Of a stretch of DNA of 64,000 bases, positions 48,179 to 64,000 are shown one piece after another. The notes beneath the pieces are model-generated. The model did no database searches. It was not told the origin of the DNA and saw only the letters and a program-made list of their open reading frames with translations. Location of the stretch: assembly GCA_017460805.1 (NCBI GenBank), contig JAFUAF010000047.1, positions 50,346-114,345 on the forward strand, written 5' to 3'. A program made the position numbers and the translations under genes. The DNA comes from Bacillota bacterium (GTDB taxonomy: Bacteria > Bacillota > Clostridia > Lachnospirales > CAG-274). Within the stretch, counting starts at the first letter, position 1. Each line of letters starts with the position of its first letter.

Positions 48179-48203
48179 TAGGTTTTTCCTCCTTTACGTA
48201 ATC

Positions 48204-48833: not shown

Positions 48834-48979
48834 AACTTTTACCTCCATAATAAACTTTACAGCGGATCGCCCGTTTTCGGGAGATCATTCTACAGTTTAT
48901 AAGGTTTTCATTTCTGTACCTATATAAACCTTTGCGGTTATCACCGCAGTTTTGGGTTAATTGTTTTTCTGATTTAAAA

Positions 48980-49502: not shown

Positions 49503-49508
49503 ACGTTT

Positions 49509-49537
49509 ATTATACACTAATAAAACCCCGATTTCAA
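49509..49537 (-). promoter_or_regulatory. Promoter of the S10-spc operon
   Basis: On the minus strand TTGAAA (49532-49537), 17 nt, TATAAT (49509-49514). It is the only strong promoter upstream of rpsJ. Confidence 0.8.
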
Positions 49538-49642
49538 GCACTTTTTTCAGAAATCGGGGTAAAATTTTTCACAAACTTTACAAAGTTTTGGTTGAATTTT
49601 TGGTTATTTTTTCATCCCGTAGTTGTCGGAATAAATATTGAT

Positions 49643-49708
49643 ACTATATATAGTAGAAATACAAAAAACAACTCCCCTATTGACATCATTCCTCAAAAGG
49701 AATATACT
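49643..49708 (+). promoter_or_regulatory. Promoter and palindrome of the higBA-like module
   Basis: TTGACA (49680-49685), 17 nt, TATACT (49703-49708). A palindrome ACTATATATAGT (49643-49654) recurs in part over the -10 (ACTATATATA), a likely autorepressor site. Confidence 0.7.
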
Positions 49709-49730
49709 ATATATACAAGGATATGAATAT

Positions 49731-50081
49731 ATGTTTAATATAGTCTATTACGAAAAATCAGACGGCACAAAGCCTGTTGCAGCCTTTATCAAAGGACTTG
49801 AGCCCAAAATGAAAACAAAAGTCCTGCGTGAAATACAGCTTCTCAAAGAATTTGGCAACACTTTAGGCGAACCGCATTCAAAATCTTTGAAAAACGGACT
49901 TTTTGAATTAAGAATAAAGCAAGGCTCAAATATTTCACGGGTATTATATTTTTTCTTTGTCGGTAACAAAATAATACTGACGAACGGATTTGTAAAAAAA
50001 GAGCAAAAAACACCGCCGTCCCAAATAGAACTCGCCGCAAAATATAAAGCCGATTATGAGAGGAGACATAAAAATGGATGA
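49731..50081 (+). CDS. RelE/HigB-type toxin (Gp49-like)
   Basis: A 116-residue protein of the phage-derived Gp49-like/HigB mRNA-interferase family. Start of the fold YYEKSDGTKPVAAFIKGL, then LGEPHSKSLKNGLFELRIK and RVLYFFFVGNKIILTNGFVK. ATG 49731 has AAGGAT about 10 nt upstream. The toxin gene precedes the antitoxin, overlapping it by 8 bp, the usual HigB-HigA order. It probably cleaves mRNA at the ribosome when free. Confidence 0.88.
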   Translation: MFNIVYYEKSDGTKPVAAFIKGLEPKMKTKVLREIQLLKEFGNTLGEPHSKSLKNGLFELRIKQGSNISRVLYFFFVGNKIILTNGFVKKEQKTPPSQIELAAKYKADYERRHKNG

Positions 50082-50346
50082 TTTTGAAAAAACCTTACAA
50101 GAATGCCTGCAAGACGAAGAATTTAAAAAAGAGTGGAAAAATACCGAACTTGAATATCAAATAACAAGAATGTTGGTAGCTGCAAGAAACGAAAAGCAGC
50201 TTACACAAAAACAACTTGCCGAAGCTTCCGGTGTCAGACAGTCAAATATCAGCCGTATCGAAAACGGAAACTGCGTACCGAGCATAGCCACTCTCGAAGC
50301 TCTCGCCGAGGGACTCGGGAAACAACTTAAAATAGAACTTGTATAA
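50074..50346 (+). CDS. HTH (XRE) antitoxin of the HigBA-like module
   Basis: A 90-residue protein with an N-terminal acidic part that would cap the toxin and a C-terminal helix-turn-helix (KQLTQKQLAEASGVRQSNIS, then RIENGNCVPSIATLEALAEG). ATG 50074 has GAGGAG 8-9 nt upstream. It should repress the promoter at 49680-49708. Confidence 0.9.
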   Translation: MDDFEKTLQECLQDEEFKKEWKNTELEYQITRMLVAARNEKQLTQKQLAEASGVRQSNISRIENGNCVPSIATLEALAEGLGKQLKIELV

Positions 50347-50350
50347 ACAG

Positions 50351-50384
50351 CAGCCCCGAACCGCAATTCGGGGCTTGTGTTTTA
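50351..50384 (+). terminator. Terminator of the HigBA-like module
   Basis: GCCCCGAA-CCGCAA-TTCGGGGC followed by TTGTGTTTT. Confidence 0.8.
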
Positions 50385-50451
50385 TTTATTGTTCGGCATA
50401 AGTATTTGCATAAAACGGCATCCCCGCCGCCATGCTGTTCCCTGCCTGTTC

Positions 50452-51297
50452 TTACTGGAATGTCCAGCCCCAGCCGCTGTAATCGCCCTCGGCGGCAACG
50501 GCGAAGTTCACAAGAGAGAAAGCGTGGGCTGCGTATACGGAGCCCGTTTCCTTATCGACAAGTGCGCCTACGGAGTCGTTTTCAAAAATGCTCACATACC
50601 AGTAGTGACCCAGATCGTATTTTACCTTGCAGGAAACAGCACCCACAGACGGGAATTTTTCGGCGATATTCTCCTTTGTTACACCGCTGAAGCCCTGTAT
50701 CTGAAATATTGTGTCCTGCATAGAGGGCAGAAATTCATCGAAATAACGCATTTCGGCTATCTTGCCCGCATCTTCCTCACTGACCTTTACGCGCATATTC
50801 TGCTCTACCCATACAAAACGGGTATCTTCGGCAAGGTCGCCCACATAGCCGACTTTTGCGCCGAAAGCAGTCGAAATAGCCCTTAAAGGCACATAGGTCG
50901 AGCCGTCGATTATCTCGGCGGGGTTTGTTGTTTCACGTCTTTCGCCGTTTACCACTACCGCGCTGTCGCCTATCGTGCATTTTATGCTTGTTTTTGCATC
51001 ATTTATAACAACAGTCTTTGTTTCGGCATCCCATGCAACATTAGCCCCGAAACGCTCGCTTATAACACGAAGCGGAACAAGCGTAGTGCCGTTTTTGATA
51101 ATGCCGTCTGCGTCGCCCGCAGCATCGCCGTTTATATAAAGCACGACCGCGGGTGCCGCCGTCTTTTTGATAATGCCGTTCGGGTACATTACCTCCATAT
51201 CGCCCTCAAAACCCGAAACCTCGATAAAAGGCTCGGCAGCAAACGCACTTGTTGTAAAAAGCATTGCCGTCAGTATCCCTGCAATAAATTTTTTCAT
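50452..51297 (-). CDS. Secreted stalk-domain protein
   Basis: A 281-residue exported protein. ATG 51297 (GAAGG upstream) opens MKKFIAGILTAMLFTTSAFA. A stalk domain spans about 50-165 (TTLVPLRVISERFGANVAWD and GSTYVPLRAISTAFGAKVGY). The C-terminal half holds a PepSY-like region (ENIAEKFPSVGAVSCKVKYD, then DKETGSVYAAHAFSLVNFAV). One of five stalk proteins in the window. It lies between two toxin-antitoxin modules. Ligand unknown. Confidence 0.83.
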   Translation of the reverse strand: MKKFIAGILTAMLFTTSAFAAEPFIEVSGFEGDMEVMYPNGIIKKTAAPAVVLYINGDAAGDADGIIKNGTTLVPLRVISERFGANVAWDAETKTVVINDAKTSIKCTIGDSAVVVNGERRETTNPAEIIDGSTYVPLRAISTAFGAKVGYVGDLAEDTRFVWVEQNMRVKVSEEDAGKIAEMRYFDEFLPSMQDTIFQIQGFSGVTKENIAEKFPSVGAVSCKVKYDLGHYWYVSIFENDSVGALVDKETGSVYAAHAFSLVNFAVAAEGDYSGWGWTFQ

Positions 51298-51320
51298 ATT
51301 AAATACCTTCTTTCTTATAT

Positions 51321-51617
51321 TCATTTTAATCTTTTGTCTAAATCCGAAGCACTGTACAAAACGTTTGTTACAAACACCATATCTTCCCTAATAACATAAA
51401 ATACCGAATAATTGTCTGCAAGCATCCGTCTTTGACCAACACTATTTATGCAGCGAAATCTCTCGGGAAAAATATTCAACGAAGAAATAGCATCGGCAAT
51501 TCTGTTATACTGTTTCATCGCAGTATCGGGCGAAAGCAAATTATATGCAATATAACTGTATATCTGCTCCATATCCGAAAGCGCTTCATTCGTCATAAAT
51601 ATTTTGTAACACTTCAT
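51321..51617 (-). CDS. ParE/RelE-superfamily toxin
   Basis: A 98-residue small basic toxin: FMTNEALSDMEQIYSYIAYN at the N-terminus, FPERFRCINSVGQRRMLADN and YSVFYVIREDMVFVTNVLYS with the usual ParE/RelE strand and Tyr/Arg features. It directly follows its antitoxin gene (51618) with no gap. Whether it hits gyrase (ParE) or mRNA (RelE) is not decided by sequence alone. Confidence 0.87.
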   Translation of the reverse strand: MKCYKIFMTNEALSDMEQIYSYIAYNLLSPDTAMKQYNRIADAISSLNIFPERFRCINSVGQRRMLADNYSVFYVIREDMVFVTNVLYSASDLDKRLK

Positions 51618-51920
51618 TTAATGTGTCTCCCTGAAATGCGCAAACGCCTCCCCTGCTTCCTGTACATTTCCTTTTTCTATATCGTCATAGCCCCGCTTTA
51701 AACGCGCCTCAAACTCTTCGTCCGTCATAAGATCGATATTGAGTGTATCGGGTGCTTTTGGGAGAGTGACATTAAAAGGTATCCCGCCGGTCAGATATAT
51801 CTGATTAAGATACATATCTATCGCCGTTGACATGGGCACCCCAAGTTTTGACAGCACTTCTTCGGCACGGGCTTTAACAGTCGGATTTACTCTTAAATTC
51901 AATGTTGTTGTTTTTTCCAT
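51618..51920 (-). CDS. RelB/DinJ-type antitoxin
   Basis: A 100-residue protein. A ribbon-helix-helix DNA-binding start (TTTLNLRVNPTVKARAEEVL, then GVPMSTAIDMYLNQIYLTGG) is typical of DinJ/RelB. The acidic C-terminus (MTDEEFEARLKRGYDDIEKG) would wrap the toxin. ATG 51920 has AAGGAG upstream. Confidence 0.9.
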   Translation of the reverse strand: MEKTTTLNLRVNPTVKARAEEVLSKLGVPMSTAIDMYLNQIYLTGGIPFNVTLPKAPDTLNIDLMTDEEFEARLKRGYDDIEKGNVQEAGEAFAHFRETH

Positions 51921-51941
51921 ATCATCACGCTCCTTATATAC

Positions 51942-51974
51942 TTGTATTGTAACGCAAACGCCGTTACAATACAA
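51942..51974. promoter_or_regulatory. Operator/promoter of the RelB-ParE module
   Basis: Perfect 13-bp arms TTGTATTGTAACG/CGTTACAATACAA around a 7-nt spacer. On the minus strand TTGTAT, 17 nt, TACAAT falls inside the arms, so bound antitoxin would block the promoter. Confidence 0.8.
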
Positions 51975-51984
51975 TATATTTCGA

Positions 51985-52164
51985 CTATTTTTCAATTACT
52001 TTTTTCACATTCTTTTCAAACTTGACCCTCGGCAGCATGACAAGGTGTCCGCAGCCCATACATTTTATGCGGAAATCCGCGCCAACACGCAGTATCTCCC
52101 ATTCATCGCTGCCGCAGGGGTGGGCTTTTTTCATTTTTACAATATCACCTAAATTAAAATCCAT
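51985..52164 (-). CDS. DUF951 protein
   Basis: 59 residues: MDFNLGDIVKMKKAHPCGSD, EWEILRVGADFRIKCMGCGH, with a Cys-x2-Cys pair and the family motif HPCGSDEWE. Its ATG overlaps the mscS stop (TAATG). DUF951 genes commonly sit beside mscS in Firmicutes. Possibly nucleic-acid binding; function not established. Confidence 0.9.
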   Translation of the reverse strand: MDFNLGDIVKMKKAHPCGSDEWEILRVGADFRIKCMGCGHLVMLPRVKFEKNVKKVIEK

Positions 52165-53039
52165 TATTTCTCGCCCTTTCTGCTGACTACCACCTGCGGG
52201 AACGGTATCTCTATGCCCTCTTTGTCAAAGCGGTTTTTAACGCGGTATCTTATGGCGCGCTCGATATTCCAGTTCTGACCTATTTTGCAGTCGGCGGCTA
52301 TCCTTATCCTTATACCGCTTTCGCCAAGTTCTTCAACACCCCAGATAGCGGGTTTTGAAAGCAGTCCGTCTATATGTTCCTTTTCGTATATCTCGGTCAT
52401 TTCATCGTCAAGAACTTTCATTACCCTGTCAAGATCCTCCTCATAAGCAACGGAAACATCCACGACACCGCGGTTGAATTCCTTGCTCATATTGGTAACG
52501 ATTTTTATCTGACCGTTGGGGATAATGTGCATATTGCCGTCCATGCTTCTTAAAACAGTAGTGCGCAGACCTATTGCCACAACCGTTCCCGTACAGCCCT
52601 CGGTCGTGATTATATCGCCCACACCGAACTGATCCTCCATTAAAATAAAAGCGCCCGTCATCATGTCCTGTATTATGCTCTGTGCGCCCAAACCCACAGC
52701 AACCGTCGCGACACTTCCCAGTGCAAGCAGAGAACCCGTATCAACGCCCCATTGGGTCAGCACCACGCACAAAAGCACAAAATACGCCACATATTTTACA
52801 ACGCTTGTCAGCACAGTACCGACCGTCTTTGCCTTTCGCGCGGGCAGTTTTGGGTTTTTGGTTATAGTCTTTTTTATTATCGCCTTTATAATGCCGATAA
52901 TAAAACTGCCGATAATACAGATAACGACCGTAATTACAGCCTTGTGCAAAGCATCTATGGCTATCTCGCTGTATTTTTCAAACAGCCACTCCTGCATATT
53001 ATGTGCGGCGAGCGGCAGAAAATCATAAAATCTCATCAT
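52164..53039 (-). CDS. Small-conductance mechanosensitive channel
   Basis: A 291-residue MscS-family channel that opens under hypo-osmotic stress. Three N-terminal membrane helices; the pore helix reads SVATVAVGLGAQSIIQDMMT. The beta domain has EDQFGVGDIITTEGCTGTVV and IIPNGQIKIVTNMSK. The ATG overlaps the stop of the yfcE-like gene (ATGA). Confidence 0.95.
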   Translation of the reverse strand: MMRFYDFLPLAAHNMQEWLFEKYSEIAIDALHKAVITVVICIIGSFIIGIIKAIIKKTITKNPKLPARKAKTVGTVLTSVVKYVAYFVLLCVVLTQWGVDTGSLLALGSVATVAVGLGAQSIIQDMMTGAFILMEDQFGVGDIITTEGCTGTVVAIGLRTTVLRSMDGNMHIIPNGQIKIVTNMSKEFNRGVVDVSVAYEEDLDRVMKVLDDEMTEIYEKEHIDGLLSKPAIWGVEELGESGIRIRIAADCKIGQNWNIERAIRYRVKNRFDKEGIEIPFPQVVVSRKGEK

Positions 53040-53581
53040 AATTTCAAACTCTTTATAACATTGCCGTCAAAATCCTTTATGCTGAAAACGCCGTTTTCGT
53101 AGAGCATATAGCTGTGGACATCATCATCCTTGGGAAGAGAAGCCGAGCCCGGATTTATATAGGTATAGTTATGTGCCTTTTGGATAACTTTTTCGTGCGT
53201 ATGGCCGTGGATAAGCAGGTCGCCGTCTTTTAAAAGCGGGGGTGCATCGTTGTTGTACAAATGGCCGTGTGTGATAAAAGCACATCTGCCGCCGTCAAGG
53301 TACAAAAGCATATAGTCCGCCATGCACGGGAATTCCAGTACCATCTGATCCACTTCCGCCTCGCAGTTGCCGCGCACGGCAAATATCTCGTTTTTCATAT
53401 CATTGAGCATTGCCGTAACTTTCTTGGGTTCATATTCGCGCGGCAGGTCATTTCTCGGGCCGTGATAAAGCAAGTCGCCAAGAAGTATCAGCCTTTCCGC
53501 CCCCTCTTTTTTATATGCTTCTATCACTTTTTCACAGTAGTACGCCGACCCGTGAATGTCGGATGCAAAAACAAGTTTCAT
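53036..53581 (-). CDS. yfcE: YfcE-type metallophosphodiesterase
   Basis: 181 residues, very like E. coli YfcE: MKLVFASDIHGS, LGDLLYHGPRNDLP, AVRGNCEAEVDQM, FITHGHL, IHGHTH and NPGSASLPK. A dimetal phosphodiesterase active on model substrates; natural substrate unknown. Translationally coupled to mscS. Confidence 0.95.
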   Translation of the reverse strand: MKLVFASDIHGSAYYCEKVIEAYKKEGAERLILLGDLLYHGPRNDLPREYEPKKVTAMLNDMKNEIFAVRGNCEAEVDQMVLEFPCMADYMLLYLDGGRCAFITHGHLYNNDAPPLLKDGDLLIHGHTHEKVIQKAHNYTYINPGSASLPKDDDVHSYMLYENGVFSIKDFDGNVIKSLKL

Positions 53582-53600
53582 TTTTTATTCTCCTTTTATA

Positions 53601-54608
53601 TTATTCCTTTATATGTTCAAGTATATATTTCGGGATTTCGGGATCTTTATAGTCCGCGTCCATACCATAGGTAACGGCAAAGGCAAAATTATCCGCCATG
53701 CACTCTTCCGCCGCTATGACATAATCGGTATTTCTGCCGACAACATCCCAAAAGTCCGATATCTCGTCAACGGTATAAATTTTATTCGGCTCGTCATAGA
53801 ATACAACGCCGGGCAGCATATAGTCAAACGGATAGACATCCTTTTTCCACCCTGCGGAAAAGTAAGAAACTATCGTTCCTTTTTTCCTTTTTCCGTTAAC
53901 GGTAAAATATGCGCTGCAATCGTATTTCGTCACGTCGGGGTTTGATGCTATGACCTTCTTCACATCCTCACCGAAAGGTATTTCTTCATCTATCTCAAAA
54001 CCTATCGCCTTGTACATCCTTGCACGAAAATCGGGGTCGTTTCTTGTCAGCACATGAAAAACTTCGTGTGCAAGCACTTCGTCAACATACGCCTCGTCTA
54101 TAATTTCCTGCTTGTAATATCCGTATATGTCCCGACCTAAGAAAACGTAGTTTGCGTGGGTATATGCCGCCGAGTCAAGCTCGTCCTTGTTGGTGCATTT
54201 TACAAAGACCACGGGCACATCAAGCTCGTATTCGTAACCAAGGTCAAAAAGCCTTTTTTGCAAAACTTCAAGACGGCTTTGATAAAACGTCTTTTCCTCG
54301 TCCGCAAAGTCAAGCACCTGCTCTTTTGCGTATTTGCGCAGCTGTGCAAGTGTCGCATCCGTTTTTCCCATTCTCCAGTCAATATTTATTTGATTCATAC
54401 TGTTGTAATATGCGTCATTCTGCTCTATAAAAGCCGCAGCTTCCGCTCTGTCCGCAAATCCGAAACGAATTTGTTTATCGGTTTTTATTTCGCTTTGCAC
54501 CGCGGTTCGGGCGACCGCCATTTCGGGCAGTTTTGCCGCCGTACCCGCCGACGCTCCCGAAAAAAGCTGCACCACAGCCAACACCGCAATTATAGGATCA
54601 ATACTCAT
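53601..54608 (-). CDS. Secreted HEXXH zinc protease
   Basis: A 335-residue exported protein. ATG 54608 has AGAGGA 6 nt upstream and opens a weak signal (DPIIAVLAVVQLFSGASAG). Zinc motif HEVFHVLTRND, with a later Glu in AEECMADNFAF that may be the third ligand. A coiled region precedes it. Family not recognised; similar lone HEXXH proteins are found in gut Clostridia. Downstream of degV on the same strand. Confidence 0.75.
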   Translation of the reverse strand: MSIDPIIAVLAVVQLFSGASAGTAAKLPEMAVARTAVQSEIKTDKQIRFGFADRAEAAAFIEQNDAYYNSMNQINIDWRMGKTDATLAQLRKYAKEQVLDFADEEKTFYQSRLEVLQKRLFDLGYEYELDVPVVFVKCTNKDELDSAAYTHANYVFLGRDIYGYYKQEIIDEAYVDEVLAHEVFHVLTRNDPDFRARMYKAIGFEIDEEIPFGEDVKKVIASNPDVTKYDCSAYFTVNGKRKKGTIVSYFSAGWKKDVYPFDYMLPGVVFYDEPNKIYTVDEISDFWDVVGRNTDYVIAAEECMADNFAFAVTYGMDADYKDPEIPKYILEHIKE

Positions 54609-54679
54609 ATACATTCCTCTTTTCTTATTTAACTTGCAATTTATCAAATTTTAAGGTATTATATTAAAGTAGGTATTAT

Positions 54680-55558
54680 TTAAAGCAGGTACTCATATTT
54701 TTTGACAGCGGCAACGCCTATAGCGGTAGGTCCTGTGTGCGTACCTATGGTAGCACCTACGGTTATGGAGTCAAAATTGGGTTCGATGCCCGTATTTTTA
54801 ACAAAAATTTGGCGCATTTCCTCCCAGCCCTCCGCACCGTTGCAGGAAGTCGTGAGAAGCCAGTATTTTTCGGGTTCTCCGTTTAAAAACTTCTCCATTT
54901 CCTTGCAGACCGCATCAAGGGCTTTCTTGCGGCCGCGCACCTTCATAACGGGCATTACCTCGGCATCTGTCAAACTTAAAACGGGCTTGATATTGAGGAT
55001 ATTGCCGATAAGAGCGGCGGCTTTGCCTATTCTGCCGCCTTTTTGCAGGTAGATAAGGTCGTCCACGATAAATTTTATGGTGGAATTTGCGGCAAGGGTA
55101 TCTGTCATGGCGGCAACTTTTTCAATGTCTATGCCGTTTTGGAGCATCCTTGCTCCCTCGCTGATAACGAGCGCCTGACCCGAAGTGGCCTGTTTGGAAT
55201 CAACGACAAGTATTTTCCTGTCGGGGAACTCCTCTTTAAGCATATTTGCGGCATTGGTGCCGCTTTGTACGCTGCCGCTCAATTTTTGCGAAAGGCAGTA
55301 GCATATAATATCCTTTCCCTCCGCAAGATAGGGGCGGAAAGCCGACATATAATCATCTATAGACGGCAGGGAGGTCTTTGTAAATACCCCCGACACCTGG
55401 GCGGCGAATATCTCCTCATGGGATATCTCCACACCCTCTTTTAAATAATCGGTGCCGTTTATAGTCACATAGTACGGGATTATTGAAATATCGTATTTTT
55501 TTATCAGGTTATCGGAAAGATCGCCTGCGCTGTCGGTAAAAATTTTATAATCAGACAT
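54680..55558 (-). CDS. DegV-family fatty-acid-binding protein
   Basis: A 292-residue DegV protein, which presents fatty acids to fatty acid kinase in Firmicutes. IFTDSAGDLSDNLIKKYDIS, FTKTSLPSIDDYMSAF, VVDSKQATSGQALV and YLQKGGRIGKAAALIGNILN are diagnostic. Promoter and dyad 55572-55618. Confidence 0.93.
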   Translation of the reverse strand: MSDYKIFTDSAGDLSDNLIKKYDISIIPYYVTINGTDYLKEGVEISHEEIFAAQVSGVFTKTSLPSIDDYMSAFRPYLAEGKDIICYCLSQKLSGSVQSGTNAANMLKEEFPDRKILVVDSKQATSGQALVISEGARMLQNGIDIEKVAAMTDTLAANSTIKFIVDDLIYLQKGGRIGKAAALIGNILNIKPVLSLTDAEVMPVMKVRGRKKALDAVCKEMEKFLNGEPEKYWLLTTSCNGAEGWEEMRQIFVKNTGIEPNFDSITVGATIGTHTGPTAIGVAAVKKYEYLL

Positions 55559-55571
55559 AATTATCTCCTCC

Positions 55572-55618
55572 GCTTAATTTGTTATTCTTATAATAACAAA
55601 TTTAAGAATAGCGGTCAA
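55572..55618. promoter_or_regulatory. degV promoter and divergent dyad
   Basis: For degV (minus): TTGACC (55613-55618), 17 nt, TATTAT (55590-55595). Overlapping it is inverted repeat AATTTGTTATT/AATAACAAATT (55576-55586/55592-55602), extended by CTTAA/TTAAG. Lies between divergent degV and topB. Confidence 0.7.
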
Positions 55619-55645
55619 GGAAAAACAAAAATTTCGGTGATAAAA

Positions 55646-57784
55646 ATGAAACAACTTGTAATAGCGGAAAAACCGTCCGTTGGCCGTGATATAGCGCGTG
55701 TGCTGAAATGCGACAAACGCGGCAACGGATTTTTATACAATGACGACTATGTGGTAAGTTGGGCGGTCGGCCACCTTGTGACCCTGTGGGAGCCCGAGGA
55801 CTACGATCCCGAGCTTAAAAAGTGGCGCAGAGAGTCTCTCCCCATCCTGCCCGACGAGCTGAAATTAAAGGCCATAGAAGCCACCAAAGACCAGCTTGAA
55901 ATACTTAAAAAACTGATAGACAGCGACAAAATAGACTCCCTTATCTGCGCGACCGATAGCGGGCGCGAGGGCGAGCTTATTTTCAGATATATATACGAGA
56001 TAACAAACTGCAAAAAGCCTTTCAAGCGCCTTTGGATAAGCAGTATGACAGACCAGGCAATAAATCAGGGCTTTGCGGGGCTGAAAGACGGCAGCGAATA
56101 CGACAAGCTGTACGATTCCGCCCGCTGCCGCTCCGAAGCCGACTGGCTTGTCGGCATGAACGCCTCCCGCGCTTTTACGCTGCGCTACAACGCACTTTTG
56201 AGCATAGGCAGGGTACAGACCCCCACACTTGCGATAATAGTTGCGCGCCAGCAGGAGATAGACGCTTTCGACTCGCGCGATTATTGGGAGCTTGAAGCCG
56301 ATTTCGGCACTTACAAAGGTCTGTGGTTTGACGAGAAAAACAACAACGATACAAAAATTTTTGAAAAAGAAAAAGCGGACGAAATAACCAAGCGCGTCAA
56401 AGGGCAAAACGGCATTGTAAGCCTTGTCGAGCAGGAAGAGAAAAAAATGCCGCCCCCGCTTTTGTACGACCTGACCGAGCTTCAGCGCGACTGCAACAGA
56501 AAATACGGTATGTCCGCACAGGAAACGCTGAATATTGCGCAGGACTTATACGAAAAACGCAAGCTGCTGACCTATCCGCGTACCGACAGCAGGCATCTTT
56601 CGGACGATATGATACCGCAGCTTTCGACAATAGCAAAAAAACTGGAGCAGATAGACGAATACAAGGATTTTGCCGCTTATGTAACAGGTCTGCCCAAGCT
56701 TCCCATAACAAAACGAATAGTGGACAACACCAAAATAAGCGACCACCACGCAATTATCCCCACAAACGGCAGACTTTATGTAAACGGTCTGAGCGACAAG
56801 GAGTTCAAGGTGTTTGACCTTGTTGTGCGCCGCTTTTTATCGGTGTTCTATCCGTATTATGTATATTCGACAACAAAAATCGTCACCGATGTGGGCGAGG
56901 ACAAATTTATCTCCCGCGGCACAACGGTCATTGACAACGGCTGGAAAGCCCTTGAAAAAGCCGACAAGGAGAAAAAGGGCAAAAAGGACACAGAAGTCGT
57001 GCTGCCCGATTTGAAACAGGGCGATATTTCTCCCGTAAAAGACGTAAAATCAACAAAGAAAAAGACCAAGCCGCCGCAGCCCTACAACGAAGCCACCCTG
57101 CTTTCCGCAATGGAAAATGCGGGCAAGTTTGTGGAGGACGAAGATCTGAAAGAGCAGCTTAAAGAGTCGGGGCTGGGAACACCCGCGACCCGTGCGGCAA
57201 TAATAGAGCGTCTTATCCATGTGGGCTATGTAAAGCGCGACAAAAAGGCGCTTGTACCCACAGAAAAAGCAATAAAGCTTATTGCGGTCTGTCCGCCGGA
57301 ACTTAAATCCGCCGAGACCACGGGCAAATGGGAAAAGGGGCTTTCTTCCATAGCAAAAGGCAAAATGGATCCCGAGCGCTTTATGGCAAGTATACGCCGA
57401 TATGTCTGCTTTTTGGTGGATAACGCCGAAAAAGCGCAGACAAACGTCCAGTTTGCCGCCGAGGGCTACGGCAAGGGCAAAAAACTTAAAATGCCCAAAA
57501 ACGGTCTTGGCATCTGCCCGCACTGCGGCGGTATAGTGCTTGAAAACAGCAAGGGCTATTACTGCAATAACTGGCGCAACGGCTGTAAATTCACTATTTG
57601 GAAAAATGCACTTGAAAGCCACGGCGTAGTTATCGACAAGGATTTTGTAACAGCGCTTTTAAAAGATAAAAAAATAGAGAATGTCAAACTTACCATGCCC
57701 GACACCAATCAGCCCGCAGAAGCAGATATAATGCTGAAAAACGATATGGGTGCGCTTGAAATGGGCACGGTCAGGCGAGAATAA
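55646..57784 (+). CDS. topB: DNA topoisomerase III (type IA)
   Basis: A 712-residue type IA topoisomerase that decatenates and relaxes single-strand-containing DNA. Toprim motifs LVIAEKPSVGRDIARVL and ATDSGREGEL (the second acidic position is Gly, as in a subset of topB enzymes). Catalytic Tyr in LLTYPRTDSRHL. C-terminal zinc ribbon (ICPHCGGIVLE...YYCNNW...GCKFTIW). Clear of mobile-element genes, so probably the chromosomal copy. 15 bp before the pyrB-like gene. Confidence 0.95.
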   Translation: MKQLVIAEKPSVGRDIARVLKCDKRGNGFLYNDDYVVSWAVGHLVTLWEPEDYDPELKKWRRESLPILPDELKLKAIEATKDQLEILKKLIDSDKIDSLICATDSGREGELIFRYIYEITNCKKPFKRLWISSMTDQAINQGFAGLKDGSEYDKLYDSARCRSEADWLVGMNASRAFTLRYNALLSIGRVQTPTLAIIVARQQEIDAFDSRDYWELEADFGTYKGLWFDEKNNNDTKIFEKEKADEITKRVKGQNGIVSLVEQEEKKMPPPLLYDLTELQRDCNRKYGMSAQETLNIAQDLYEKRKLLTYPRTDSRHLSDDMIPQLSTIAKKLEQIDEYKDFAAYVTGLPKLPITKRIVDNTKISDHHAIIPTNGRLYVNGLSDKEFKVFDLVVRRFLSVFYPYYVYSTTKIVTDVGEDKFISRGTTVIDNGWKALEKADKEKKGKKDTEVVLPDLKQGDISPVKDVKSTKKKTKPPQPYNEATLLSAMENAGKFVEDEDLKEQLKESGLGTPATRAAIIERLIHVGYVKRDKKALVPTEKAIKLIAVCPPELKSAETTGKWEKGLSSIAKGKMDPERFMASIRRYVCFLVDNAEKAQTNVQFAAEGYGKGKKLKMPKNGLGICPHCGGIVLENSKGYYCNNWRNGCKFTIWKNALESHGVVIDKDFVTALLKDKKIENVKLTMPDTNQPAEADIMLKNDMGALEMGTVRRE

Positions 57785-57799
57785 AAAAGGGGTGAATAC

Positions 57800-58732
57800 A
57801 TGAGTTTTTCACGAAAAGACTTTATCAGTCTTCAGGACATAACCAAAGACGAGATACATGACATACTTGAAACAGCCGAAACAATGAAATTTGTTCTCGG
57901 TCAGAAAAACAAAAAAACACCGTATCTTAACGGCAAATCCGTTATAATTCTGTTTTACGAGCGAAGTGTGCGCGCAAAGCTGAGCTATGAGCTTGCGGCG
58001 CAGTACCTTGGCGCAAACATAGTCGATATAACCGTACCCGGTGTTGAGGACAGGCACGAGAACATAAACGACATGGGCCGCACGATAGAGCAGATGGGCG
58101 GTGATTTTATCATCTGCCGCCACCCGATGGCGGGCAGTGCAAAACTGCTTGCGGAAAAGGTAAAAGCAGGCGTTCTGAACGCGGGCGACGGCATAAACGA
58201 GGACCCGTCGCAGGCGCTTTTGGACCTTATGACGATAAAACACATAAAAGGCGGTTTTGACGGCCTGAAAGTCACCATTGTAGGCGATGTTATGAACTCG
58301 CGTGTTGCGCGAAGCAATATATGGGGACTTTTAAAACTTGGCGTAAACGTCTGTGTTGTTGCCCCGCCGACCATGATACCCACGCATCTTGACAAATTCG
58401 GCGTTAAGGTATACTACAATTTAAAGGACGCAGCCAAAAACTCCGACGTTATAATGAGTCTGCGGTTGCAGGCCGAGGACAGCTACGGCAGCCGACTTGC
58501 AAGCTTTAACGAATACAAGGACTACTTTAAGGTAACGCCCGAAATACTCGATTATGCAAAGCCCGACTGCATCATCATGCACCCCGGTTCGCCCGACCGC
58601 CGTGTCGAAATAGACAGCGGCATTATAGACAGCGACCGCTGTATCACCGATGACCAGATAACAAACGGCGTTGCCATACGCATGGCGCTGCTGTACCTTT
58701 TATCCATGGGAAGGAGGGATATGGATGAGTGA
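57800..58732 (+). CDS. Aspartate carbamoyltransferase-like protein, divergent active site
   Basis: 310 residues with the full carbamoyltransferase fold of PyrB (GGFDGLKVTIVGDVMNSRVA then RSN; IIMHPG; NGVAIRMALLYLL). Key carbamoyl-phosphate and catalytic motifs are altered. STRTR becomes SVRAK (FYERSVRAKLSYELAA). The mobile-loop Ser/Lys are gone (VEDRHENINDMGRT). HPTQ becomes DPSQ (GINEDPSQALLD), removing the catalytic His. RxQxER becomes RLQAED, and HPGPxNRG becomes HPGSPDRRV. Conserved Arg in RHPMAG and SRVARSN remain. So it may be inactive or have changed specificity. It is operonic with topB and overlaps the pyrC-like gene. Confidence 0.85.
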   Translation: MSFSRKDFISLQDITKDEIHDILETAETMKFVLGQKNKKTPYLNGKSVIILFYERSVRAKLSYELAAQYLGANIVDITVPGVEDRHENINDMGRTIEQMGGDFIICRHPMAGSAKLLAEKVKAGVLNAGDGINEDPSQALLDLMTIKHIKGGFDGLKVTIVGDVMNSRVARSNIWGLLKLGVNVCVVAPPTMIPTHLDKFGVKVYYNLKDAAKNSDVIMSLRLQAEDSYGSRLASFNEYKDYFKVTPEILDYAKPDCIIMHPGSPDRRVEIDSGIIDSDRCITDDQITNGVAIRMALLYLLSMGRRDMDE

Positions 58733-60008
58733 GCTGCTTATAAAAAACGTAAGGATAGTTGCCGACGGATATAACGAAGACGAGGTATATCAGCTTCTTG
58801 TATCCGACCACAAGATATATAAAATAGACAAGGAAATAAAATCGGACACCGCGGAAGTCATTGACGGCAAAGGCTATCTGCTTATGCCGGGACTTATAGA
58901 TATGTCGTGCAAGCTGTGCGAAGCGGGTTTTGAGAACACTTCAAATATTATAACCGTAAGCCACAGCGCCGTTGAGGGCGGCTTTACAAGTCTTGTCTGT
59001 TCGCCCAAAACACAGCCCTGCATAGACACAAAATCCGTTGTGGAATACATTTCTTCCAAAGTAAAGACCTATTCCCCGATAAATTTCTATCTCTACGGCT
59101 CTATCACAAAAAACTGTGACGGCACGGAGATAGCGGAAATGGGCGAGATGATAAGCCGCGGCGTTATAGCGCTTTCCGACGGCGGCACAAGTATTCAGGA
59201 TGCAAGCATACTGCGCCATGTGCTGATGTACAGCAAGATGTTTGACATTCCCGTCGTTACCCGCTGCGCCGATAAAAATTTATGTAAAAACGGCTGTATA
59301 AACAAGGGCTACTACTCCACAAAACTGGGTCTTAACGGCTGTCCTTTGGAGGCGGAGGAAACTATCGTTGCACGCGACCTTATCCTTGCAAAATACGCAA
59401 ACGCAAGGATACACATTACAAAGGTAAGCACGGGCGGCTCGGTCTATCATCTGCGCGGCTCGCGCAAAAGGGGCATAAACGCCACTGCAGATACCTGCCC
59501 GCAGTATTTTACAAAATCCGAGTGTGAGGCAGACAACTACAACACGATAGCGAAAGTCGATCCGCCGCTTCGCACACAGGACGATATAGACCTTATTATC
59601 GAGGGTCTGCGTGACGGCACGATAGACGTTATCTCCTCGGGTCACACACCCGCCACCATCGACACCAAGGATATGGAGTTTGAAAACGCAAGCTACGGCA
59701 TTTCTTCACTTGAAACTGCATTAATGGTCACTTTTACCGCCCTTGTCAAAAACAACGATTTCACGCCTTTGGATATAGCCAAAAAGATGTCCGAAAACCC
59801 CGCCAAAATACTGGGTCTTAAAACAAAGGGCAAAATTGCGGTGGGCATGGATGCCGACCTGATAATCGTTGACGACAAAAATGCACATAAGATTAATGCG
59901 GCAAACTTTGTTTCAAGGGCAAAATATTCGCTCTATGACGGCGAGGAACTTTACGGCAAAACTCTTGTCACCATCTGCGGCGGCGAGATACTTAAAAAAT
60001 CCATTTAA
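58725..60008 (+). CDS. Dihydroorotase-like protein lacking metal ligands (pseudo-PyrC)
   Basis: 427 residues of the PyrC/amidohydrolase family by length and framework (LLMPGLIDM, GGFTSLVCSPKTQP, LGLNGCPLEAEETIVARDL, DPPLRTQDDIDLIIEGLRDG). The metal centre is lost. HVHxREPG becomes SCKLCEAG, HCED becomes RCAD, HxxHVST becomes HITKVST, PHH becomes PQY, and TDHAPH becomes SGHTPA. Inactive pseudo-DHOases are known as structural partners of ATCase in some bacteria. Here its ATCase-like partner is also altered. ATG 58725 has GGAGGG upstream, inside the pyrB-like gene. Confidence 0.87.
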   Translation: MSELLIKNVRIVADGYNEDEVYQLLVSDHKIYKIDKEIKSDTAEVIDGKGYLLMPGLIDMSCKLCEAGFENTSNIITVSHSAVEGGFTSLVCSPKTQPCIDTKSVVEYISSKVKTYSPINFYLYGSITKNCDGTEIAEMGEMISRGVIALSDGGTSIQDASILRHVLMYSKMFDIPVVTRCADKNLCKNGCINKGYYSTKLGLNGCPLEAEETIVARDLILAKYANARIHITKVSTGGSVYHLRGSRKRGINATADTCPQYFTKSECEADNYNTIAKVDPPLRTQDDIDLIIEGLRDGTIDVISSGHTPATIDTKDMEFENASYGISSLETALMVTFTALVKNNDFTPLDIAKKMSENPAKILGLKTKGKIAVGMDADLIIVDDKNAHKINAANFVSRAKYSLYDGEELYGKTLVTICGGEILKKSI

Positions 60009-60090
60009 ACTGCCTGTATGTTCCGATAGACAAAACATATTTTTAATGATAAAATAAAATAAAATAAAAAACACAAAAGGAGAAATCAAA

Positions 60091-60678
60091 ATGAAAAAAT
60101 TAGCAGCAGCTTTACTTGCCGTTGCCGCTATGGCTGTGCCCGCAATGGCAGATACGGAAGTGAATGTAAATGTAAACGGCGTTGATGTGCCCCAGAAAGG
60201 CGTTATACTTGAAAGCCGCACAATGGTGCCCGTAAGAGGTGTGACCGAACAGCTTGGCTTTACAGTTGACTGGGATGCCGACACAAAGACAGCGACTTTC
60301 ACACGCGACATTATCGTTATCAAAATGACCTCAGGCGAAAAGTCCTTCTATGTAAACGACATACCTTTTACACCCGATGTGCCCCAGGCGATAATAAACG
60401 ACCGCTTTATGCTTCCTCTGCGTGCAATGTGCGAAAGCGTAGGCGCGGAAGTTGACTGGGATGCCGATACAAAGACGGCAAGCATCAGCACAAAGTCGCT
60501 TTCCATGCCCGATCTTTCAAACACTTCTCTTCCGACCGAAAAGAAAGAAGATGACGGCGACAACACAGGCGCAAGCACCGATATCGGCACAAAGATAGAA
60601 ACGGGCATCCCCGGCATTTCGATTGAGATAATCGATCCGTCCGAGGCTCCCGACAACATAACCGATATAGAGATTTAA
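60091..60678 (+). CDS. Small secreted stalk-domain protein
   Basis: 195 residues. Signal peptide MKKLAAALLAVAAMAVPAMA, then one stalk domain (ESRTMVPVRGVTEQLGFTVD, then WDADTKTATF; NDRFMLPLRAMCESVGAEVD, then WDADTKTASI). The tail is disordered, Asp/Thr/Ser-rich. AAAGGAG lies upstream. Closest window relative is 20423-20893. Own terminator. Confidence 0.85.
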   Translation: MKKLAAALLAVAAMAVPAMADTEVNVNVNGVDVPQKGVILESRTMVPVRGVTEQLGFTVDWDADTKTATFTRDIIVIKMTSGEKSFYVNDIPFTPDVPQAIINDRFMLPLRAMCESVGAEVDWDADTKTASISTKSLSMPDLSNTSLPTEKKEDDGDNTGASTDIGTKIETGIPGISIEIIDPSEAPDNITDIEI

Positions 60679-60683
60679 AAAGA

Positions 60684-60713
60684 ACCCCGCATCGGAACAG
60701 GTGCGGGGTTTTT
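60684..60713 (+). terminator. Terminator after the stalk-domain gene
   Basis: AACCCCGCA-TCGGAACAG-TGCGGGGTT followed by TTTAC; 6 bp beyond the stop. Confidence 0.9.
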
Positions 60714-60729
60714 ACACAAAAAGAATATA

Positions 60730-60921
60730 ACTATTTTACTTTTCGACACAAAAAACATTGTTGTGACATAAAGATATCAATTTGGACGCATTTCGCCGTA
60801 AAATCACTCGAAAACGCTCGTTTTAACCGCTAATAAGTCGAGCTGAAATGCTGGAAATCTTCAATGGTTTATTATACAATTAGTGTATAAATAAATTAGA
60901 CTATTTGGAGAAAGTATTAAC
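60730..60921. other. Spacer with a relic of the repeat edge
   Basis: TTTTACTTTTCGACACAAAAA (60734-60754) resembles the edge of repeat elements A and B (TTTTACTTTTCGATGCAAAAA), with two base differences. The rest is AT-rich and includes a small palindrome TATACAATTAGTGTATA (60874-60890) just before the next gene, a possible promoter/operator area. Confidence 0.45.
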
Positions 60922-61194
60922 ATGAAAACACTCGACACACATTCACAAACAATAATCATTGACGGCAAAAAACATGTTCTTGTCCACTATCTGACAGAAA
61001 CAAAAGGCATATTTGGTCTTGGCGTGCGCCTTGATGCCGAATATACCGAAGATAATAACTTTACAAAAAGTTATGCTTTTGCACATCGGATTTTTGAGAC
61101 AATGTACAAAGAAGCCGTACTGCCGCTGAATTTTTATTCTGTACTTGATGATATGTATATACCCGAAGAGACTGCCGCCGCGCTTGAAAAATAG
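60922..61194 (+). CDS. Small protein, DUF6514-like
   Basis: 90 residues, soluble. The order HVLVHYLTETKGIFGLGVRL and then FETMYKEAVLPLNFYSVLDD resembles the DUF6514 family of Clostridia; the identification is tentative. GGAG lies 12-13 nt before ATG. Function unknown. Confidence 0.65.
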   Translation: MKTLDTHSQTIIIDGKKHVLVHYLTETKGIFGLGVRLDAEYTEDNNFTKSYAFAHRIFETMYKEAVLPLNFYSVLDDMYIPEETAAALEK

Positions 61195-61239
61195 CAAGCG
61201 TTATGCGGTCGTTCCTCTGCTGTTCCATTAAAGATCATC

Positions 61240-62445
61240 TCATTTTTTTGCGGGAAGATCGATCTCATCAGTCAAAGCCTTTTGCATAATATATGCCGCA
61301 TCGCTTGCGGTAATAACATTGTCGGTGTCCGCATCGACATATTTCAGCCAATCGGAACTCTTTTCCTCAATAGGCAGCACAAACGAGTCCAGCAGTGTCT
61401 TTTGCAGTACAAAAGCCGCATCGCTTGCGGTAATTTGCTTATCGCCGTCTGCATCACCGTAAACAAGTTTGTCCGCAGCAGGAAAAGTATCATATTTATA
61501 ACCATTGTCCGCAGCCCAATTTTGCGCATAGCTGTTTTCTTCAACATAAAAAACCAATTTTTCTTTATCGCAGTCTGCAAAGGCTTCATTGCTTATCCAT
61601 TTTACCCCACCATAAACGGTCACACTTTCTAAGTTTTTACATCCGTTAAATGAAAATCCCGATATTACCGTAACGCTTTGGGGTATCTTTATACTTTTCA
61701 GCGATGTACAGCAGGAGAATGTGTCACCTTTGATCGTACTTATACCCTCGGGAATATCAATATCCGTCAGGTTCTCACATTTATAAAATGCTGATTCATC
61801 AATATTTGTTATCCCCGACGGAAGATCTATACTTGCCAATGAGGAACACTTGGCAAATGCGTATTGACCGATCTCTGTCACGCTGTCGGGTATGCTTACA
61901 CTTGTCAGAGCGGTACAGCCGAAAAAAACATAGCCATCCAACGATGATATCCCCTCGGGTAATTCAATGCTTTTAAGACTTGTGCAGTCTTGAAATGCAC
62001 CACTGTCGATCACAGTCACTCCCGACGGTATATTTATGCTTTCCAAGCTTACACAATCGGCAAAAGCGTCGCAGTCTATTTTTGTTAAGCCGCTTGGAAG
62101 ATGTACATCCGTAAGACTTCTGCATTTCATAAATGCAGCTATATTGATGGTTTTCAGACTTTCGGGAAGACTTACGCTTTTTAAATTTTTACATCCCTCA
62201 AATACATAACCGCCCACAGCGGTCACGCCATCGGGAATAACAACGCTTGTAACCGTAGTATCTGCACCGCTTACCTCGTTATTGACCAGATAAATATTTC
62301 CCCCCTCTGCCTCGACTATCGTATCGTAGTATATTGTTTTGTAACCCACTTCAATAGTCCGTATCTCGCCCGCAGATATCGGCTGAACCGACAATAAAAG
62401 CATTGACACCGCAATTCCCGCCGCAGCGATTTTTTTGAGTAACAT
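61240..62445 (-). CDS. Secreted leucine-rich-repeat (BspA-like) protein with dockerin
   Basis: A 401-residue exported protein from ATG 62445 (GAGGAGGAG upstream). Signal peptide 1-25. About ten BspA-type LRRs of about 23 residues (for example CKNLKSVSLPESLKTINIAA and CTSLKSIELPEGISSLDGYV). The C-terminal type I dockerin has two calcium loops (GDADGDKQITASDAAFVLQK and VDADTDNVITASDAAYIMQK). LRR proteins of this type bind host or polysaccharide surfaces. The dockerin could attach it to the cohesin-like SLH protein at 18014. Confidence 0.85.
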   Translation of the reverse strand: MLLKKIAAAGIAVSMLLLSVQPISAGEIRTIEVGYKTIYYDTIVEAEGGNIYLVNNEVSGADTTVTSVVIPDGVTAVGGYVFEGCKNLKSVSLPESLKTINIAAFMKCRSLTDVHLPSGLTKIDCDAFADCVSLESINIPSGVTVIDSGAFQDCTSLKSIELPEGISSLDGYVFFGCTALTSVSIPDSVTEIGQYAFAKCSSLASIDLPSGITNIDESAFYKCENLTDIDIPEGISTIKGDTFSCCTSLKSIKIPQSVTVISGFSFNGCKNLESVTVYGGVKWISNEAFADCDKEKLVFYVEENSYAQNWAADNGYKYDTFPAADKLVYGDADGDKQITASDAAFVLQKTLLDSFVLPIEEKSSDWLKYVDADTDNVITASDAAYIMQKALTDEIDLPAKK

Positions 62446-62899
62446 AATGACTCCTCCTCTGTTATATAAGTATTTCTTGTTAAACTTGAAAATGCTTCTT
62501 AAAATTGCTTTTAACAGAACGAAGCGGAAATTTTCGAGAATATGGAAACCGTCCGAAAGCACAGCTGAAATGCTATTTTGAGCAAGATTGGCACATCTAT
62601 CGAAAAATTTATCAAGTTATGTAAAGAATGATTTTTAAAAAGTCCCCTTAAATAATTTGCCGTTTATATCATTAGATGACACTAAACGCTTTTAATAATT
62701 CTGCTTTATATTTTAATTGTAGCACATAATCTGAACTTGTCAATATTACTTGACACGTTTTCTTCGTTAGATTTTAGGGATGAACTGTGATGCGTGTAAA
62801 CTTCCTGACCATCATATATACAACGAAGCAAAAAACATTTTTTATATCTGCAAAATATTTCATTATTGTTACATATATATTATTTTATTGTGACTTACA
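62446..62899. other. AT-rich spacer, no gene seen
   Basis: Divergent intergenic DNA between the LRR-dockerin gene and the membrane protein. No reading frame with a ribosome site, and no clear promoter for the LRR gene, could be supported. Confidence 0.5.
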
Positions 62900-62928
62900 T
62901 TGACATTTTGTAAACAATGCTATATAAT
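62900..62928 (+). promoter_or_regulatory. Perfect consensus promoter of the membrane protein gene
   Basis: TTGACA (62900-62905), 17 nt, TATAAT (62923-62928), 36 bp before ATG 62965. Confidence 0.85.
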
Positions 62929-62964
62929 AGGCTTTGATTAAATTTAATAAAAGGAGTGGGAAGC

Positions 62965-63459
62965 ATGAATCCAACAAAAACTATTAAGGTTCTTGCTATA
63001 ATTGCACTTGTATTCGGTATACTCGGCCTTATCGGCAGCGTTTTAGCTGTCTTAGGCGGTGGTGCAGTTACAGCAGTAAGCCAAAATGAGGAAATTATGT
63101 CTCAGATTGCAAACGATGAGGATGTTTCAGCCAGTCTTAGCGAATTAAACAACGCTATAGGTCAGGATGTCAGTGCCGAAGAAGCAACAGCAGGTGCCGG
63201 CGTATTGTTTATGGCAGCAGGTATCATAGGCATTATCTCTTCTATCTTCGGTATCCTTGAGGGCGTATTTGGTCTTAAGGCTGCTAAGGGTGATGTATCG
63301 GGCGCAAGCAAAGCTTTCGTTATCGGTATCATTGAGATCGTTATCGCTGTTATCGGCGTATTTGCAGGCGCAGGCCTTGTAAGCGCCATAATCAACATTG
63401 CAATCGCAGCTCTTTACACATACTGCGCAAAGCAGATCAAAGACGGTGCTGCAGAATAA
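62965..63459 (+). CDS. Four-helix membrane protein of unknown function
   Basis: 164 residues, Gly/Ala/Ile-rich, about four membrane helices (residues ~8-30, 75-100, 113-135, 137-155) in a DUF4064-like layout, with an acidic extracellular loop (QNEEIMSQIANDEDVSASLS). ATG 62965 has GGAG 8 nt upstream. The perfect promoter and terminator suggest strong expression as a single gene. Confidence 0.75.
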   Translation: MNPTKTIKVLAIIALVFGILGLIGSVLAVLGGGAVTAVSQNEEIMSQIANDEDVSASLSELNNAIGQDVSAEEATAGAGVLFMAAGIIGIISSIFGILEGVFGLKAAKGDVSGASKAFVIGIIEIVIAVIGVFAGAGLVSAIINIAIAALYTYCAKQIKDGAAE

Positions 63460-63471
63460 TTCAAATCTAAA

Positions 63472-63500
63472 AAAAACAGCTGTTCACGCGGCTGTTTTTT
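63472..63500 (+). terminator. Terminator of the membrane protein gene
   Basis: AAACAGC-TGTTCACGCG-GCTGTTT followed by TTTT. Confidence 0.85.
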
Positions 63501-63530
63501 TATGTCCCGGCATTATTTAAAATAATATAC

Positions 63531-63560
63531 AAAAAAAATCACACCGTAAAGTGTGATTTT
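63531..63560. terminator. Terminator of the 5S-tRNA operon
   Basis: AAAAATCACAC-CGTAAA-GTGTGATTTTT. On the minus strand it lies just after tRNA-Asp and is followed by T's. It is symmetric and can act both ways. Confidence 0.85.
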
Positions 63561-63566
63561 TTTAAG

Positions 63567-63640
63567 CGACTCGGAAGGGGCTCGAACCCTCGACCTCTGG
63601 CGTGACAGGCCAGCGCTCTAACCAGCTGAGCTACCGAGCC
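63567..63640 (-). tRNA. tRNA-Asp (GTC)
   Basis: Acceptor GGCTCGG/CCGAGTC. Anticodon stem CTGGC/GCCAG, loop CTGTCAC, anticodon GTC. T-arm GAGGGTTCGAGCCCCTT. CCA not encoded. Confidence 0.95.
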
Positions 63641-63674
63641 AAATTTTTATATATGGAAAGGATGGTATGAAAAG

Positions 63675-63748
63675 TGGTCCCTCTGGGACTCGAACCCAGG
63701 ACCGTCCGGTTATGAGCCGGATGCTCTAACCAACTGAGCTAAAGGACC
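63675..63748 (-). tRNA. tRNA with CAT anticodon (Ile2 or elongator Met)
   Basis: Anticodon stem TCCGG/CCGGA, loop CTCATAA, anticodon CAT. The body GGTCCTTTAGCTCAGTTGG is closer to the tRNA-Ile2 (lysidine) type than to B. subtilis elongator Met. The identity cannot be decided by anticodon alone. Confidence 0.9.
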
Positions 63749-63776
63749 ATGTTTATAAACATGGATAATTGTAAAA

Positions 63777-63849
63777 AGCCGATGAACGGACTCGAACCGT
63801 TAACCTGCTGATTACAAGTCAGCTGCTCTGCCAATTGAGCCACATCGGC
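63777..63849 (-). tRNA. tRNA-Thr (TGT)
   Basis: Acceptor GCCGATG/CATCGGC. Anticodon stem GCTGA/TCAGC, loop CTTGTAA, anticodon TGT. First tRNA after 5S. Confidence 0.95.
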
Positions 63850-63862
63850 ATATTGTTAATTG

Positions 63863-63980
63863 ATCCGGCAGCCACCTACTTTCCCAGGCAGTCTCCCGCC
63901 AAGTATCATCGGCCGCTTGGGTCTTAACCGTCGTGTTCGGTATGGGAACGGGTGTGTCCCCCAAGCGTATCGCCACCGGA
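63863..63980 (-). rRNA. rrf: 5S ribosomal RNA
   Basis: About 118 nt on the minus strand beginning TCCGGTGGCGATACGCTTGG, with the conserved CCCGTTCCCATACCGAACAC and GGGAGACTGCCTGGGAAAGT blocks. End of an rRNA operon whose 16S/23S lie beyond the window. Confidence 0.96.
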
Positions 63981-64000
63981 AGTGTTTTATTCTTTTGAAC

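Follow-up and report, generated by a model that had tools for sequence, protein, structure and literature searches.

The window, that is, the whole stretch of 64,000 nucleotides from a gut bacterium analysed here, encodes a PyrB-like protein (hereafter B') and a PyrC-like protein (C') that lack catalytic residues of ATCase and DHOase, respectively. Because both proteins are without these residues and the pair is nevertheless kept by selection in many relatives, a binding or regulatory complex is its likely role. More specifically, we consider it somewhat probable that B' and C' form a predicted complex of the ATCase–DHOase type, whose likely mode of action is not catalysis but the binding of a partner or a small ligand.

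Both genes are open, full length and overlapping, as an earlier note based on the sequence alone had described. The two proteins were defined by open reading frame, family profiles and alignment, and the altered sites within them by alignment:

55637..57784, + strand: topB-like topoisomerase immediately 5' of B', an upstream neighbour in the window's genus only
57800..58732, + strand: B', PyrB-like protein of 310 aa without the ATCase catalytic set
57965..57979, + strand: SVRAK in place of STRT[RK] in B' (T53V, T55A; S52 and R54 retained)
58202..58204, + strand: D135 of B' where the H134 equivalent is expected (DPSQ)
58478..58480, + strand: D227 of B' where the R234 equivalent is expected (RLQAED versus RxQxER)
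58580..58606, + strand: HPGSPDRRV in place of HPGPxNRGV in B'
58725..60008, + strand: C', PyrC-like protein of 427 aa without metal or catalytic residues
58905..58913, + strand: SCK of C' where the zinc ligands HxH are expected
59181..59183, + strand: Gly of C' where the metal ligand Asp153 is expected (A. aeolicus number)
59262..59264, + strand: Arg of C' where the His180 equivalent is expected
59421..59423, + strand: Lys of C' where the His232 equivalent is expected
59640..59642, + strand: Gly of C' where the Asp305 equivalent is expected (SGHTPA versus TDHAPH)

The start of C' is the ATG at 58725, which is preceded by GGAGG and gives an overlap of 8 nt with B'; a longer alternative frame (TTG, from 58671) is unnecessary. 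All the changes that the earlier note had listed are present, both in B' (SVRAK, DPSQ, RLQAED and HPGSPDRRV, by frame and alignment) and in C' (HxH to SCK, TDHAPH to SGHTPA and the later His residues to R and K). Alignment with the genome's own working pair rules out that the motifs are conserved at shifted positions.

Active-site residues lost and kept

By family profile both proteins pass as enzymes. B' is annotated as such because it scores above the NCBIfam ATCase cut-offs (302 versus 263 bits and 251.1 versus 236.95), and it matches Pfam PF02729 and PF00185, the two domains of the transcarbamylase fold. C' exceeds the TIGR00857 cut-off (324.7 versus 279.05 bits) and is assigned by NCBIfam and Pfam to the amidohydrolases of the dihydroorotase group. 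Database homologues of both, where named, carry the enzyme names. AlphaFold models have a pLDDT of 90.0 for B' and 89.5 for C', with 61 for residues 81–90 of B' (the 80s loop). The B' model matches ATCases in the PDB, and in a Foldseek search the C' model matches DHOases, its best match being the B. anthracis DHOase (TM 0.94).

In E. coli numbering, B' of the window lacks T53, T55, S80, K84, H134 and R234 and retains S52, R54, R105, Q137, R167, R229, Q231 and P266. Among the features of transcarbamylases, the two-domain fold and the conserved Arg105 of strand beta 4 (R107 in the window protein) are present; HPxQ, RxQxER and SxRT, the last being a defining motif of the family according to PMC4581275, are absent. 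Table 1 of that source gives the H134 equivalent as His in all nine transcarbamylase types. A different carbamoyl transfer, one of the roles that the earlier note had proposed, appears unlikely for a protein that fails SxRT, HPxQ and RxQxER.

The sites of the same Table 1 were surveyed in 38 distinct B' from other genomes, against 73 working PyrB. In the SxRT motif, S52 is kept in 34 of the 38, T53 in 5, R54 in 37 and T55 in 1. Elsewhere, S80 and H134 are kept in none, K84 in 5, R105 in 36, Q137 in 36, R167 in 38, R229 in 27, Q231 in 20 and P266 in 37, and residue 267 is unchanged in all 38. In a wider set of 56 B', H134 is kept in 0, T55 in 4, K84 in 7, R234 in 13 and Arg167 in 56, and position 134 is Asn in 72 and Asp in 48 of 120 database homologues, His being found in 0/120. 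The same positions being altered in other genomes, the changes are neither chance nor assembly error.

In working PyrB, 68 sites show an invariance of at least 98%; catalytic sites are retained less often in B' than the other invariant sites (mean 0.56 versus 0.80; Mann–Whitney p 0.006; 13 versus 55 sites), and by our own assignment 12 of the 16 sites kept in fewer than half of the B' belong to the SxRT motif, the 80s loop, H134, the 240s loop or the HPGP motif. Trimer contacts are kept: D/E90 in 37/38, R/K269 in 35/38 and D100 in 37/38, the contacts being those named in PMC7053772 and their mapping onto E. coli numbers our own. Retention of R54 and R105 may be structural alone.

In C' of the window, all six metal and catalytic residues are missing. 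The zinc ligands of DHOase are His61, His63 and Asp153, with Asp305 nearby, and His180 and His232 are dispensable in the A. aeolicus enzyme, as described in PMC3880350. Measured against a type I dihydroorotase, C' of the window has the amidohydrolase barrel and has SCK, G and G in place of the zinc ligands and Asp305. Among 120 database C', both His of HxH are kept in 1, Asp153 in 0 and Asp305 in 0, with His180 in 55 and His232 in 68. Since the dispensable His residues are often kept and the ligands are gone, the loss hit the essential site. An Asp is conserved one position before the lost Asp153 in C' of all grades, and a register shift by which it rescued the ligand may be a point against reading this site as lost.

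The HxHLR stretch (58905–58922 in the window) has become CxxC in most C', with Cys at the x of HxH in 112/120 and at the Arg position in 107/120. This CxxC is a possible new metal or redox site.

Distribution, descent and genomic setting

The earlier note had set an altered pair that is the organism's only pyrB and pyrC against its own reading; the genome in fact holds a second, motif-intact pyrB–pyrC pair (G000:C9:137711-139894), with pyrF, carA and carB downstream (names from sequence alone). Identity to this working copy is 47% for B' and 39% for C'. Another ATCase is held by 40 of the 43 B' carriers examined. Seventeen of these 40 have a Bacillus-type ATCase with motifs checked, and G083 also holds another ATCase. 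A PF02729 search of 25 carriers found another ATCase in 22, namely 15 with an E. coli-type PyrB and a PyrI-like frame behind it, 6 of Bacillus type (G056 by score only) and G034, with an E. coli-type form in which one motif was not found. The same search found no other ATCase in G016, G054 and G133 (92–94% complete). A second DHOase above the TIGR00857 cut-off is present in 21/21 carriers searched, with motifs read for part of them. Particular B' were also considered as the sole ATCase of their genomes, an early-grade B' (see below) in the complete f22 genomes G126 and G131 and a derived one in G119 and G064 (one contig each); both cases were rejected, since all four genomes also encode an E. 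coli-type PyrB followed by a PyrI-like frame.

B' occurs in 21 of 41 genomes (40 relatives and the window's own), and a very divergent form occurs in G034. In a sample of 117 genomes from the order, which is Lachnospirales by its named relatives, at least 31 carry B' (32 with G034); this count covers sequences read by motif and does not include two partial and several working-type matches. The locus L229 scored slightly higher with the working copy, but its motifs identify it as B', and the 53-B' tree places it there too. Carriers belong to the families labelled f1, f4, f5, f7, f16, f17, f21 and f22, and those named among the at least 80 loci listed include Anaerotignum sp. MSJ-24, Tyzzerella sp. 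UBA1042, Candidatus Fimicola, a Defluviitaleaceae and a Vallitaleaceae bacterium. One database homologue, with 70% identity to B', is named from [Clostridium] colinum, a species that NCBI assigns to Lachnospirales.

No copy of the pair was found in one genome of the window's genus, G005 (86% complete), or in seven of its family, namely G006, G010, G013, G014, G018, G020 and G021. It is therefore dispensable in some lineages. Two of these family members (G014 and G021, genus g10) have, at loci L060 and L063, an intact PyrB beside a PyrC with lost ligands: HxH has become NxH in this PyrC, HCE has become YSV in G014, and TDHAP has become TNHSP in G021. This is a separate, Pseudomonas-like case; a second PyrC lies at C174 in G014, and none was found in G021 (71% complete).

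Phylogenetically, all 53 B', including that of the window, form a single clade (SH-aLRT 100), which was also recovered with 38 rows in a 113-row tree (SH-aLRT 100) and with 21 rows in a careful tree (100/100). The 36 C' form a single clade as well (SH-aLRT 100). Repeats of one contig were omitted as rows (L072, L073, L078, L035, L036 and L140, later L222 and L224), as were short or cut C'; the 53-B' tree also omitted L070 and near-copies, and the 90- and 69-row trees omitted further near-copies and long rows. B' of the window is a row in the 53-B' tree only, and its C' is represented by relatives in the 36-C' tree, being itself absent from all trees. A recent duplication of the working copy was rejected, as working Lachnospirales PyrB and B' separate in the 113-row tree and again in the careful tree of 69 rows, from which long rows had been removed. 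With 90 rows, however, an AU test did not reject a grouping of B' with working Lachnospirales PyrB (p 0.73), and the likelihood was higher by 11.7 for the joined tree. B' may therefore be either an ancient copy inherited vertically or the product of an ancient duplication; what is shown is its location at the former operon site.

This site was recognised from gene order. In functional relatives (six loci read, four of them functional; names from sequence resemblance) the order is lspA-rluD-pyrR-(uraA)-pyrB-pyrC-pyrF-carA/carB, and most B'–C' copies occupy the lspA-rluD site where other Clostridia have pyrR-pyrB-pyrC. Among 38 B' loci, rluD is the immediate upstream neighbour of 30 (at most 170 bases away) and topB that of 4, all four in the window's genus and arranged as in the window; L094 (Vallitaleaceae) lies behind pyrR-uraA, L052 is near neither, and for the other 2 the upstream sequence is too short. 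Conservation of the altered pair with topB, which the earlier note had suggested checking, holds in the window's genus only: the pair stays linked across genera but elsewhere mostly follows lspA-rluD. No pyrF-carAB match was found beside the B'–C' loci tested, and no pyrR or uraA match upstream of 9 derived loci (8 distinct). Rfam at gathering score gave no match near the pair in window positions 45000–64000, and across 10 B'–C' loci its sole match was a ribosomal leader in L037, with no known RNA control element. Elsewhere in the window, an S10-Clostridia ribosomal leader lies at 49417–49492 (− strand) and a cluster of tRNA-Asp, tRNA-Met, tRNA-Thr and 5S rRNA at 63566–63980 (− strand).

The very divergent pair of G034 (L070, contig C16) also stands behind lspA-rluD; it carries QMRKK, ESPIR and HTGVVRRG and has a branch of 2.1 in the 113-row tree. 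In G054, B' is present at L226 (contig C19), and only the later portion of C', close to where the contig stops, reads in one frame, this gene being either broken or cut.

Within the 53 B', 39 derived rows form a clade (99), and 14 early rows, which are not a clade, lie between it and working PyrB. The early grade comes from f4, f7, f21, f22 and the Vallitaleaceae. A pyrR-like and/or uraA-like gene lies at most 3.1 kb upstream in 12 of its 14 loci, ending within 300 bases in 8 and 1–2 kb away in 4 (L229, L231, L232 and L233); L056 is directly behind rluD, and L053 has just 85 bases upstream. The early B' have 53S, 55S, 134N and 166N in 14/14 and lack Ser80, and keep R234 in 12/14. Their carbamoyl-phosphate side is thus uniformly changed, with the aspartate-side residues mostly kept. 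Among the 42 derived B', R234 is found in 1 (L049) and T55A in 34. The early C' keep H61, H180 and H232 in 13/13 and D305 in 12/13; they have lost H63 in 12/13 and, in 13/13, the Arg of HLRE, which presumably binds the dihydroorotate carboxylate. Among 40 derived C', D305G is found in 38, H180 is kept in 12, H232 is kept in 13, and H63 is lost in all 40. As read from these residues, the window's clade has lost more of both active sites than the early grade.

Selection, pairing and competing explanations

Nei–Gojobori omega for 10 pairs of five genomes in the genus was 0.011–0.065 for B' and 0.058–0.170 for C', compared with 0.014–0.069 for working B, 0.016–0.084 for working C and 0.080–0.177 for topB, values that are rough, most pairs having a dS close to 1 or above it. 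The B'–C' pair is under purifying selection, and C' evolves faster than working PyrC. C' adjoins B' in 36 of 38 loci, the other two running to the contig edge. In the order sample it does so at 20 of 21 loci, three of these being contigs that the first set already contained. The partial distance correlation between B' and C', beyond that of the working genes, is 0.71 (0/2000 permutations; 15 genomes, with G002 and G030 left out); between B' and working PyrB, given C' and working C, it is −0.34. The co-variation of B' and C' is as would be expected for members of a complex. Together with adjacency and the retained trimer residues, it is the basis for inferring a class A-like complex. Between G001 and G003 (L152 and L154), dS is 0.27 in working pyrB and 0.93 in B', perhaps through recombination or transfer of the working operon. 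Transfer of working genes could also weaken the −0.34 figure.

Under the non-catalytic complex that we favour, the pair would have left catalysis stepwise. Change would have begun in the carbamoyl-phosphate pocket, at a stage when the pair still belonged to pyrimidine control, and would then have reached the metal site and the 80s and 240s lids, the trimer and an open anion pocket being kept. This order is read from living sequences alone. The retained Arg residues belong to the carbamoyl-phosphate and aspartate pocket, from which the carbonyl-polarising His and the lids (the 240s loop and the 80s loop contributed by the neighbouring chain) are gone, so that the B' trimer might still hold an anion and be unable to close or react, bridged by C' as in Aquifex and Pseudomonas. 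Such a complex would read a phosphate-like or pyrimidine-pathway ligand and pass the signal to a putative partner. A sensing or regulatory role is proposed because the early neighbours are pyrR and uraA. In its most specific form, which we put forward only tentatively, a double-pseudoenzyme ATCase–DHOase reactor of Lachnospirales would read carbamoyl phosphate or a pyrimidine-pathway ligand and control uptake or synthesis, born in a pyrR-uraA operon and later freed from it.

Since early C' keeps H61, H180, H232 and D305 and early B' keeps R234, some catalysis may persist in the early grade. The pair might still be an enzyme couple acting on another substrate, such as a uracil-derived compound that lacks the carboxylate of dihydroorotate, with B' as a carbamoyltransferase and C' as a ring-opening amidohydrolase. 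The position of 12 of 14 early loci downstream of pyrR-like and/or uracil-permease-like genes would suit such a couple, as would the fixed rather than scattered changes of early B' (the same four residues in 14/14) and the near-complete retention of those four residues in early C', from which the HLRE Arg has gone in 13/13. Against it stand the His that all nine transcarbamylase types share at position 134 in Table 1 of PMC4581275, the loss of H63 in nearly every early and every derived C', the absence of all six ligands from C' of the window (0/6), and Arg167, present in 56/56 B' and unneeded for a substrate without an alpha-carboxylate. On balance we regard a changed-substrate couple as rather unlikely. 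That B' and C' are modulators mixing into oligomers of the working ATCase or DHOase would fit their shared fold, the retained trimer contacts and the 47% identity of the window's B' to working PyrB. The pair is kept, however, in 15 genomes with an E. coli-type ATCase and a PyrI-like gene, where the ATCase is about 30–36% identical to B', and the distance correlation of B' with working PyrB is negative; we consider such mixing improbable.

Two further explanations deserve very little credence. A decaying, functionless remnant would account for the stepwise loss of catalytic residues, the faster evolution of C' and the absence of the pair from several genera, but B' matches the working ATCase in its low omega, the frames are full length in many genomes, and B' and C' are still adjacent after the move behind topB. 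A pseudogene reading was rejected on the open frames and omega. Equally far-fetched, in our judgement, is a C' that is a mere scaffold assembling B' as an active ATCase of odd sequence: it has a Pseudomonas precedent (PMC7053772), yet B' lacks H134 and S80, mostly lacks T55 and K84, and has another ATCase beside it in 40/43 carriers.

Relation to known systems and significance

In a class A complex, ATCase trimers are held by DHOase dimers. The Pseudomonas class A2 ATCase resembles B'–C' in pairing an ATCase-like chain with a DHOase-like chain that lacks an active site, but its ATCase chain is active once assembled, whereas B' lacks the catalytic residues and another ATCase is present; judged by these residues, B'–C' would not be the active ATCase with an inactive DHOase chain that defines class A2. 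The comparison with Pseudomonas drawn in the earlier note thus covers half the case, the inactive DHOase, because the ATCase there is active. Both folds of the Aquifex aeolicus class A1 reactor (3d6n) are matched by the predicted models (TM 0.83/0.88 for B' and 0.94/0.95 for C'), although both Aquifex chains are active in the complex and B' and C' each lack their residue set. With the Bacillus-type PyrB and PyrC of the clostridial lspA-rluD-pyrR-pyrB-pyrC-pyrF-carAB operon, the pair shares its chromosomal place in most carriers, and B' is 44–51% identical; those proteins, in contrast, are working enzymes in one pyr operon, whereas no pyrF-carAB, nor pyrR in the derived clade, was found at the B'–C' loci tested.

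C' also recalls the fungal pseudo-DHOase domains and the CRMP proteins, in which a DHOase/dihydropyrimidinase fold without a metal site is kept for other uses. CRMP proteins are not known to have enzymatic activity, and their structures are among the Foldseek matches of C'. The fungal domain, unlike C', is fused to an active ATCase, and we know of no ATCase-like pseudoenzyme partner of CRMPs. A literature search whose coverage leaves out most subscription journals returned no report of a doubly altered pair of this kind among the matches listed.

If the favoured non-catalytic complex is correct, B'–C' would exemplify an enzyme couple that nature has repurposed and kept beside motif-intact copies. 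Because curated cut-offs call both proteins enzymes, annotation-based metabolic models probably count steps that B' and C' do not perform. The early grade and the derived clade would offer ready stages for studying the loss of catalysis from a complex that itself persists.
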